This document shows, one piece after another, positions 843 to 29,945 of a stretch of DNA of 30,664 nt. The DNA lies in IMG/VR virus record IMGVR_UViG_3300026116_000081, positions 1 to 30,664 of that record. The stretch is one strand, 5' to 3'. Both the position numbers and the translations under genes were made by a program. The notes under the pieces are model-generated. The model did no database searches. It saw only the letters and a program-made list of their open reading frames with translations, and had not been told where the DNA came from. The DNA comes from a virus. Each line of letters begins with the position of its first letter. Positions within the stretch are counted from its first letter, which is position 1.

Positions 843-881
843 AAAAAGAAGGGCGACCCTCCGTCTTAGAAGAGTCGCCCT
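843..881 (-). terminator. Rho-independent terminator of the minus-strand unit 1701-918
   Basis: On the minus strand an 8-bp perfect stem (AGGGCGAC with GTCGCCCT, plus 850-857 and 874-881, 16-nt loop) is followed at once by a T-rich run, seen on the plus strand as AAAAAGAA at 843-850. It lies just downstream of the stop of the 89-residue gene and just upstream of the next minus-strand promoter, so it separates the two minus-strand units. Confidence 0.8.
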
Positions 882-917
882 CAAGGTTACTGTCAGTGGA
901 GCCAACAGAGTCGTGAA

Positions 918-1187: not shown

Positions 1188-1423
1188 TTGGTATCCTCTA
1201 TATACATGGGTTCTGGACGCTTACGAACCTCATCAGGTACCTTAATCCCAACCTTATCGAAAGCGGAGATGATGGCGACCGTGAAGCTAAGAGGATTGTC
1301 ATATCGCTTACGTCCAATACGATACCCGTTGAAGTGGAGAGTATCGATCTCCGCATCCAACTTATGCTCCCTAGCTAGGAGCATAGCCTTCTCGGCTTGT
1401 TCGTATACAGGACGTGCGAACAT
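1184..1423 (-). CDS. Hypothetical phage protein (79 aa)
   Basis: This 79-residue protein begins MFARPVYEQAEKAMLLAREH and looks like a small alpha/beta protein. A GAGGA ribosome-binding site precedes the ATG. It lies 17 bp after the 86-residue gene and overlaps the next gene by 4 bp, so all three genes of this unit are co-translated. I assign no function. Confidence 0.75.
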   Translation of the reverse strand: MFARPVYEQAEKAMLLAREHKLDAEIDTLHFNGYRIGRKRYDNPLSFTVAIISAFDKVGIKVPDEVRKRPEPMYIEDTK

Positions 1424-1719: not shown

Positions 1720-1836
1720 TGTTAGTGGAGATTATATTGGCAGGCTCAGGATCCATCCTTCGTTTTTGATCCTAGGGCGTATGAAGCTCTTGCGCCTTAA
1801 TCCTGAGCCTACCGATATAATCCTGTTAGTGGAGAT
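1720..1836. repeat. 13-nt direct repeat flanking a structured element
   Basis: The 13-mer TGTTAGTGGAGAT occurs exactly at 1720-1732 and again at 1824-1836. The copies flank the inverted-repeat element at 1731-1821. Read on the minus strand, each copy (ATCTCCACTAACA) directly follows one of the two large inverted-repeat elements. A diverged copy (TGTCAGTGGAGCC) lies at 891-903, downstream of the last gene of the unit. The role is unknown; it could be a processing or protein-binding sequence. Confidence 0.7.
1731..1821. ncRNA. Structured element S2: 22-nt inverted repeat, candidate non-coding RNA or leader structure
   Basis: The arms at 1731-1752 and 1800-1821 match at 20 of 22 positions as Watson-Crick pairs. 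One of the other two becomes a G-U wobble on either strand. Inside, AGGATC (1748-1753) can instead pair with GATCCT (1768-1773), and GGCG-type sequence at about 1775-1779 can pair with CGCC at about 1792-1796. Two mutually exclusive folds, or a multi-branched fold, are therefore possible. There is no reading frame here. The element lies in the predicted leader of the minus-strand unit, but strand and function are not proven. Confidence 0.5.
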
Positions 1837-1994
1837 GTGCTGTCGTCTATCCTAACAACAAGCTGATCAGAAGCACTATTCGCTCTCGTCTAGTTTGCTC
1901 CAAGGATCCTGAATACTTCAAAGGTTGGAGACTGAAGTTTGAGCGAGGGAATAAGTGTCTAGAGGCTCACTGCTAGGATAGACGATAGCACATC
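1834..1994. ncRNA. Structured element S1: 161-nt rod-like inverted repeat, candidate non-coding RNA or site
   Basis: The arms at 1834-1854 and 1974-1994 are complementary at 20 of 21 positions, and the remaining pair is G-U if transcribed from the plus strand. Inside them, 1874-1887 and about 1944-1957 can form a second, imperfect stem, and CTCCAA (1898-1903) pairs with TTGGAG (1925-1930). The whole 161 nt can therefore fold into one long rod. It begins only a few nt after the predicted start of the minus-strand promoter at 2008-2052. A non-coding RNA, a leader structure, a packaging site or an origin element are all possible. Confidence 0.5.
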
Positions 1995-2007: not shown

Positions 2008-2055
2008 ATAATATAATAGAAGCTTAGTGACTTCAAGAGTCCAAATTTGGTCAAA
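2008..2055 (-). promoter_or_regulatory. Minus-strand promoter with GACCAA box (divergent partner)
   Basis: On the minus strand a GACCAAA box (plus 2052-2046) is followed, at a 16-nt offset, by the -35 TTGAAG (2036-2031), a 17-bp spacer and the -10 TATTAT (2013-2008). This is the same geometry as the three plus-strand promoters at 2070, 7794 and 10362. A second TATAAT-like hexamer (2010-2005) lies 3 bp further on. It would transcribe the structured elements S1 and S2 and then the genes from 1701 down to 918. Confidence 0.65.
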
Positions 2056-2066
2056 TGAGAGTCCGG

Positions 2067-2114
2067 TTTGACCAAGAGATTCCTGTTGAAATGCCCAAAG
2101 ACTTACCATATAAT
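2067..2114 (+). promoter_or_regulatory. Plus-strand promoter with GACCAA box, upstream of terminase genes
   Basis: The sequence holds TTTGACCAA at 2067-2075, -35 TTGAAA at 2086-2091, a 17-bp spacer and -10 TATAAT at 2109-2114. The segment GACCAAGAGATTCCTG (2070-2085) is nearly identical to the same segment at 7794-7809 and 10362-10377. The box forms a perfect 9-bp inverted repeat with TTGGTCAAA at 2047-2055, the box of the divergent promoter. Transcription should start near 2121, so the usable start codon of the first gene is the GTG at 2143. Confidence 0.75.
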
Positions 2115-7752: not shown

Positions 7753-7763
7753 GTGGAGAGGGG

Positions 7764-7792
7764 AAGAGGGAGCTTCGGCTCCCTCTTTCTTT
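7764..7792 (+). terminator. Rho-independent terminator with UUCG tetraloop
   Basis: A perfect 10-bp stem (AAGAGGGAGC at 7764-7773 with its complement at 7778-7787) is closed by a C(TTCG)G tetraloop and followed by TCTTT. It lies 12 bp after the membrane protein cluster. It ends the transcription unit that begins with the terminase genes. The next promoter starts within its T-run. Confidence 0.93.
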
Positions 7793-13989: not shown

Positions 13990-14011
13990 CACCTCCTGAA
14001 ATGAGGAAGTG
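13990..14011 (+). promoter_or_regulatory. Hairpin that can hide the ribosome-binding site of the connector gene
   Basis: CACCTCCT (13990-13997) can pair with AGGAAGTG (14004-14011) at 7 of 8 positions across a 6-nt loop. The right arm contains most of the GAGGA ribosome-binding site of the next gene. The hairpin lies in the 30-nt gap after the disordered head protein. It could lower translation of the low-copy connector relative to the abundant capsid protein from the same mRNA. Confidence 0.45.
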
Positions 14012-14014
14012 TCT

Positions 14015-14422
14015 GTGACCGTAACTAGTGCTCAAGTCAAAGCGATCATTACTACGTCCATCGCAGACACTTCCTCGTTTATCAATACTGCCACCATTCT
14101 CGTGAATAATGTGCTCGCAGATCAAGGGTTAGACTCTAGTCTTGTAGACCAAATCACCCTTTATCTATCAGCACATTTCGTGTGCCTAACCGAAGAGAAT
14201 GGCGGTCTCCGTCGCTCTAGGCTAGGCGAGTCGGACGAAAGCTATAAGGTACCCGGAGATAAGGATACGGGTTTGGCATCTACTCGTTATGGTCAAACCG
14301 CGATGCTCATGGATACCTCAGGTACTCTTGCAGGTCTCAGTGCCAATAAGGGACTTCCTGCACTATTCACGGTTATTGGGGACGTTGAAGACAATCCTGA
14401 CTATTCTGAGAACACGCTATGA
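14015..14422 (+). CDS. Head-tail connector (gp6-like adaptor), 135 aa
   Basis: The start is taken as the GTG at 14015, which has GAGGA 7 nt upstream; the in-frame GTG at 14009 lies against the same GAGGA and is unlikely. The protein (VTVTSAQVKAIITTSIADTS, then a helical region ending in ALFTVIGDVEDNPDY) is mainly helical. It has the length and position of the adaptor that binds beneath the portal. It contains a conserved-looking LSAHFVCLTEENGGL segment. It overlaps the next gene by 4 bp (ATGA). The assignment is by order and size. Confidence 0.7.
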   Translation: MTVTSAQVKAIITTSIADTSSFINTATILVNNVLADQGLDSSLVDQITLYLSAHFVCLTEENGGLRRSRLGESDESYKVPGDKDTGLASTRYGQTAMLMDTSGTLAGLSANKGLPALFTVIGDVEDNPDYSENTL

Positions 14423-16761: not shown

Positions 16762-17121
16762 ATGTCAAGTTCAGAACTTCGTGATCGTTTGCGTGCTAAG
16801 GTCTTTGCCGAACACAAGGTTAAGACTATTCCAGTTGAGTTCTTTGGTGCTACGATCGAGCTCCGCCAACCTACTATGGAAGACATCGTTAAGGTTCAGG
16901 CAGATCCTGACCGTGAAGCAATTGTCATTCGTACACTGATCGATTACGCTTTCGTTCCGGGTACTGATGAGAGGGCTTTTGAAGCTGGTGACGCAGATTC
17001 CCTTAAGAAACTACCCTTCGGTGCTGACTTCCTGCGCATATCCAAAGCGCTGGAGGAATTGACAGAAGTAAATTTTCTCGACAAACCCGTTTCTTCGAGC
17101 GTAGACCAGACTACTACCTGA
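16762..17121 (+). CDS. Tail assembly chaperone, short form (gpG-like, 119 aa)
   Basis: The 119-residue protein begins MSSSELRDRLRAKVFAEHKV and contains the domain with VEFFGATIELRQPTMEDIVK, common in tail assembly chaperones of siphoviruses. GGGAGG lies upstream of the ATG. The short form ends at 17121. An AAATTTT slippery site at 17070-17076 allows part of the ribosomes to shift by -1 and make a longer product. It should coat the tape measure and recruit tube subunits during assembly, and should not be part of the virion. Confidence 0.85.
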   Translation: MSSSELRDRLRAKVFAEHKVKTIPVEFFGATIELRQPTMEDIVKVQADPDREAIVIRTLIDYAFVPGTDERAFEAGDADSLKKLPFGADFLRISKALEELTEVNFLDKPVSSSVDQTTT

Positions 17122-29900: not shown

Positions 29901-29945
29901 TGCCAGGGAGAGAAGACTGCCTCCCATCTCTCCCTGGCACCCTTT
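29901..29945. terminator. Terminator hairpin between converging units
   Basis: A perfect 13-bp stem (TGCCAGGGAGAGA at 29901-29913 with its complement at 29927-29939, 13-nt loop) is followed on the plus strand by CCCTTT. It lies between the end of the lysis cassette (29877) and the end of the minus-strand genes (29944). The plus-strand T-run is short and the minus-strand side has none, so it should work mainly for the plus-strand late transcript. Confidence 0.8.

Follow-up and report, generated by a model that had tools for sequence, protein, structure and literature searches.

The window, by which we mean the whole stretch of viral DNA analyzed here (30,664 nt; IMG/VR record IMGVR_UViG_3300026116_000081), contains a divergent region close to its left end. 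The rightward unit, considered as context only, starts at a promoter-like site found by scan (TTGAAA-17-TATAAT, 2086-2114, plus strand) and comprises a 337-aa ORF followed by TerL (phrog_38, E = 1e-80) and then portal. On the minus strand, the consensus scan detected a sigma70-like site, TTGAAG-17-TATTAT (2008-2036), within the conserved block TTTGACCAAATTTGGACTCTTGA, although its score was not by itself above the shuffle background; a TATAAT at 2010-2005 overlaps this site. Reading leftward, the order is the promoter, a long inverted repeat (rod 1), a linker, a second hairpin (hairpin 2), the same linker, an AAGGA-type ribosome site, three small ORFs, and a terminator. The minus-strand transcript would be expected to start near 2001, at the foot of rod 1. 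The three ORFs in the ORF list (1441-1701, 86 aa; 1184-1423, 79 aa; 918-1187, 89 aa; all minus) had no assigned function, and the third has an L007 homologue with 47% identity. The terminator and fold scans placed an intrinsic terminator at 849-882 (minus), in which a 14-pair stem is followed by CTTTTT, and a separate promoter (822-794) serves the next minus operon. Elsewhere in the window, strong hairpins rich in GC, with short stretches of T-rich sequence behind them, were observed at 7762-7790 and 29901-29939, and these are probably intrinsic terminators.

Rod 1 (1834-1994, minus) is supported by folding, by the inverted-repeat scan and by a counterpart in a related phage described below. 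As stated in the preliminary description, this 161-nt inverted repeat has 21-nt outer arms (1834-1854 and 1974-1994) paired at 20 of 21 positions, the exception (1842/1986) being a G-U on the plus strand. We found that the arms extend without gaps to 24 nt (1834-1857 and 1971-1994) at 92% complementarity, with a second exception that is A-C on the plus strand and G-U on the minus strand. The minimum free energy was -65.2 kcal/mol for the plus strand (z = -5.5) and -64.1 kcal/mol for the minus strand (z = -6.4), and none of 200 shuffles folded equally well, in agreement with the earlier view that the repeat is far beyond chance. Because 1% of random 190-nt pieces reach a z of -4.7, fold stability by itself is a weak argument, and the case depends on the geometry. 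Inverted repeats scoring as high occurred once in 400 kb of shuffled relatives. The DNA folding was strong too, both strands pairing about equally well. No credible gene was found at rod 1, as had also been claimed; a 53-aa ORF (1694-1855) overlaps one arm.

The preliminary description had overlooked hairpin 2, a direct repeat around it and the terminator that closes the minus operon. Hairpin 2 (1730-1822, minus; 93 nt) was detected by the inverted-repeat and fold scans and has 23-nt arms (1730-1752 and 1800-1822) that are 91% complementary, with fold z values of -6.5 on the minus strand and -7.6 on the plus strand. In the fold scan of the whole window, rod 1 and hairpin 2 were the top minus-strand structures. 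The perfect 13-nt direct repeat TGTTAGTGGAGAT lies at 1720-1732 and 1824-1836, and its minus-strand form ATCTCCACTAACA ends each hairpin. The first copy (1824-1836) consists of the 10-nt linker TCCACTAACA and the final 3 nt of rod 1, and the second (1720-1732) leads up to the first ORF's ribosome site. Furthermore, the leader segment CCACTAA..TGCA..GGA..CACACA preceding the first ORF recurs before the next minus operon (approximately 752-779; 1 of 2,000 shuffles was as good); thus, the linker is part of a leader segment that the window phage uses twice. No second copy of rod 1 or of hairpin 2 was found in the window.

Related TerL proteins were found at 32 loci in viral contigs and at none in the bacterial and archaeal genome collection. 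When the whole contigs of the relatives were scanned for inverted repeats, one relative, L056 (IMGVR_UViG_3300037258_000125; a 68-kb contig, the phage of L011), matched the window in both place and kind; its TerL is 59% identical to that of the window. In L056, TTTGACCATAATTTGGACTCTTGA...TATAAT, the same promoter block, precedes a minus-strand rod of 165 nt (16839-17003) with 23-nt arms, and this rod begins at the expected transcript start. The two rods are alike in promoter block, length, position at the start and an outer helix in the same alignment columns. They differ in the interior, the sequence of which is not shared, in the downstream gene, which in L056 is a different, unrelated small ORF, and in the distance to the terminase genes, which is approximately 20 kb in L056. 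A strong second hairpin was not found in L056, leaving hairpin 2 without a strong counterpart there.

The alignment of promoter plus rod between the window and L056 scored 165 against a maximum of 117 in 200 shuffles, with the promoter contributing much of this score; the similarity of the rod starts alone was weak (p = 0.015). The rods were aligned with MAFFT from sequence only, without structure. In the columns of the window outer stem, 21 of 21 countable L056 pairs formed, five of them through changes on both sides, whereas the slid controls gave 0-1 pairs. The covariation proposed as a check in the preliminary description was found in the outer helix, but with two sequences, and with 18 of 500 shuffles reaching the observed covariation, it is suggestive and not proof. 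The wobble pair had also been taken to favour a plus-strand RNA. This was not borne out: a strand-neutral count over the window and L056 rods gave nine wobbles in the sense (minus) direction and 11 in the antisense direction, that is, no strand preference.

The promoter was more widely conserved than the rod. The block TTTGACCAAATTTGGACTCTTGA was conserved in L008, L007 and L056, and the divergent promoter was conserved in L008 and recognizable in L007. L007 and L008 have the most similar terminases among the relatives with usable upstream sequence, and their leaders (approximately 270 and 100 nt, respectively) were not unusually structured on the minus strand and had no rods. Two of the 26 promoters of this class, those of the window and L056, are followed by a long rod. 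Hence, because so few carry one and because L007 and L008 do without, a long rod is not generally required. The 1.02 Mb of sequence from relatives contained 48 promoters of the class and about three dozen strong inverted repeats; by our arithmetic, chance would place the start of approximately 0.05 repeats within 30 nt of a promoter of the class, and two were seen, one of which is rod 1 itself. A long early-promoter motif, approximately GACCATCATTTGGACTCTTGA-N17-TATAAT, recurs in the phage group, at 2031-2060 (minus) of the window and in 26 further contigs (L070-L095).

Several other searches were negative. Queries with the first leader ORF, the third ORF or the arm sequence returned no close relatives, and the arm sequence of rod 1 was present in no viral contig. 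A gapped arm pattern matched only the known L056 contig, and the promoter pattern gave 23 matches in genome contigs over unrelated phyla, which by our arithmetic is about chance for 257 billion bases. Rfam gave no match at the gathering score or at E up to 10, and annotated phages gave chance-level matches only.

Other structured elements were seen in the window and its relatives. At 13999-14080 (plus) of the window, 20-nt arms (90%) enclose a GAGG ribosome site and a GTG start (14009 or 14015) of a small ORF that follows the capsid gene region. This hairpin, which might hold back translation of the small ORF, was not seen in homologues. At 1306-1389 (minus) of L007, a hairpin with 18-nt arms includes the ATG of a 67-aa ORF. 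L050 has two paralogous AT-rich rods of approximately 200 nt (911-1105 and 1909-2112). Each is followed immediately by a AGGAGGTG ribosome site and a small ORF (L048, 801-1133 and 1817-2158), and a CUCCU at the 5' foot of the second rod pairs with its ribosome site. The rods of L012 and L024 were considered as kin of the window rod and rejected, as they belong to another family with TAACTCGTTGA arms, and the two rods of L048 and L049 have no sequence in common with the window.

A second, unrelated family of rods, absent from the window, consists of inverted repeats of 150-270 nt with the conserved ends TAACTCGTTGAAATCATT. It was found in L051 (106-315), L057 (12412-12645), L059 (18959-19229), L066 (14676-14824), L121 (1642-1903), L129 (5644-5908), L134 (1340-1593), L147 (9924-10136), L148 (19616-19828) and L154 (5282-5458), at about one place per phage, with an additional half-copy in L147 and L148. 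These rods often lie between divergent units, 1-5 kb upstream of the terminase genes, and their inner and outer arms vary in sequence yet remain complementary. They had no match in Rfam or known phages and are perhaps an origin or a non-coding RNA.

Returning to the locus in the window, we propose with moderate confidence that an early phage mRNA runs leftward (minus strand) here and begins with a structured 5' leader formed by rod 1 and hairpin 2, which would most likely control its life and translation. Given how the elements are ordered on the minus strand and that L056 has a counterpart, a transcribed 5' leader is the simplest reading. The recurrence of the leader segment before the next minus operon and the position of the L056 rod, distant from terminase and ahead of a different gene, also speak for it; the lack of strand preference among the wobbles, the rarity of long rods behind promoters of this class, the missing strong counterpart of hairpin 2, the two-sequence basis of the covariation and the weak similarity of the rod starts speak against it. 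Of the three possibilities raised in the preliminary description, the evidence best supports a non-coding RNA made from the minus-strand promoter, with the modification that it would head an early mRNA as its 5' leader and not exist as a free RNA. RNase III acts on stems of this size (23-24 near-perfect pairs), and messages that begin with a stem are protected from decay that depends on the 5' end. In the proposed mechanism, transcription would begin near 2001, and the RNA would immediately form the 161-nt rod and next the 93-nt hairpin; a copy of the short linker would come after each, and the ribosome site of the three small ORFs would come after the second copy. By analogy with the lambda N leader, the leader would probably work as an RNase III substrate, as a 5'-end stabilizer, or as both: the 24- and 23-pair stems would be long enough to be cut by host RNase III, cleavage would produce a defined end with the linker preceding the ribosome site, and the stem at the extreme 5' end of the message would shield it from 5'-end-dependent decay.

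The element would then belong to a known kind, the structured early leader of phages, with rods and a shared early promoter that had no match in the libraries searched. Early phage messages that begin with large, near-perfect hairpins would lend themselves to RNase III cleavage or be shielded from decay, and the counterpart in two phages provides a defined element to test. In addition, gene control in an uncultured phage lineage can be approached through the shared early promoter and the recurring rods. If the leader were only an mRNA stabilizer, the finding would be a modest one.

The alternative that survives best, albeit as an unlikely one, is a DNA element, either a replication origin or a packaging (pac/cos) site beside the terminase genes, both of which had been suggested earlier. 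The site does lie in a divergent region adjoining the terminase genes, its arm mismatches suit DNA palindromes as well as RNA, its DNA folding is strong, its two strands pair to a similar degree, and many relatives carry the other, unrelated rod family within a few kb of the terminase genes. However, a packaging site is disfavored because the L056 rod is so distant from its terminase genes and because L007 and L008, whose terminases are the nearest among relatives with upstream sequence, keep the divergent promoter without rods, contrary to the conservation expected of pac/cos. We found no positive evidence for a replication origin, and the GC skew does not turn at the site.

Next comes a stand-alone regulatory small RNA, in which the rod would be freed from the leader to act on other RNAs or on a protein. 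The rod is compact, very stable and of small-RNA size, and the linker behind each hairpin could be a cleavage site. Nevertheless, there is no terminator behind rod 1 or hairpin 2, the interior sequence is not common to L056, and the lack of an Rfam match even at the relaxed E value indicates that it is not a recognizable 6S RNA; we therefore regard such an RNA as quite unlikely.

The most interesting rival, which we rank below these two as improbable, is a put-like antitermination leader with which the polymerase would ignore the terminator at 882-849 and continue into the minus genes behind it. HK022 putL likewise has two stem-loops right after an early promoter (PMC9378689), and in the window an intrinsic terminator with further minus ORFs beyond it lies downstream. 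On the other hand, putRNA is approximately 70 nt against the 161 and 93 nt found here, L056 has no strong second hairpin, and the next minus operon, with a promoter of its own, does not need such read-through. Improbable to the same degree is a leader RNA of a new class that modifies the polymerase or acts in trans; such a long rod, linked to the GGACTCTTGA early promoters in this uncultured phage group, would switch early genes without known antitermination proteins. That a recently inserted palindromic mobile remnant (MITE-like) accounts for at least hairpin 2 is very improbable: the perfect direct repeats flanking hairpin 2 could be a target duplication (10-13 nt), and rods are missing from close relatives, but the window has no second copy of hairpin 2 or rod 1, the arm sequence of rod 1 was found in no viral contig, the repeat belongs to a leader segment also placed before another operon, and rod 1 and its L056 counterpart both lie where the transcript is expected to start.

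Finally, we compared the structured early leader proposed here with known systems. The early RNase III sites R1-R5 of T7 lie between genes and are short irregular hairpins. The window resembles them in having RNase III-type hairpins, as candidate sites, in an early phage mRNA, whereas both of its hairpins lie in the 5' leader. HK022 putL is similar by arrangement, its two stem-loops immediately following the early promoter, and differs in length. The nearest well-studied arrangement appears to be the lambda pL-N leader with its RNase III hairpin (Wilson et al. 1997 and 2002, as cited in PMC5725501). The window differs from it in having two hairpins and a repeated linker, and RNase III cleavage here is predicted. 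In the window, as in lambda, a leftward early operon has a long hairpin on its coding strand, located after the early promoter and before the first gene, and the stem in the window has at least approximately 20 pairs; it is in this sense that the leader may work like that of N.
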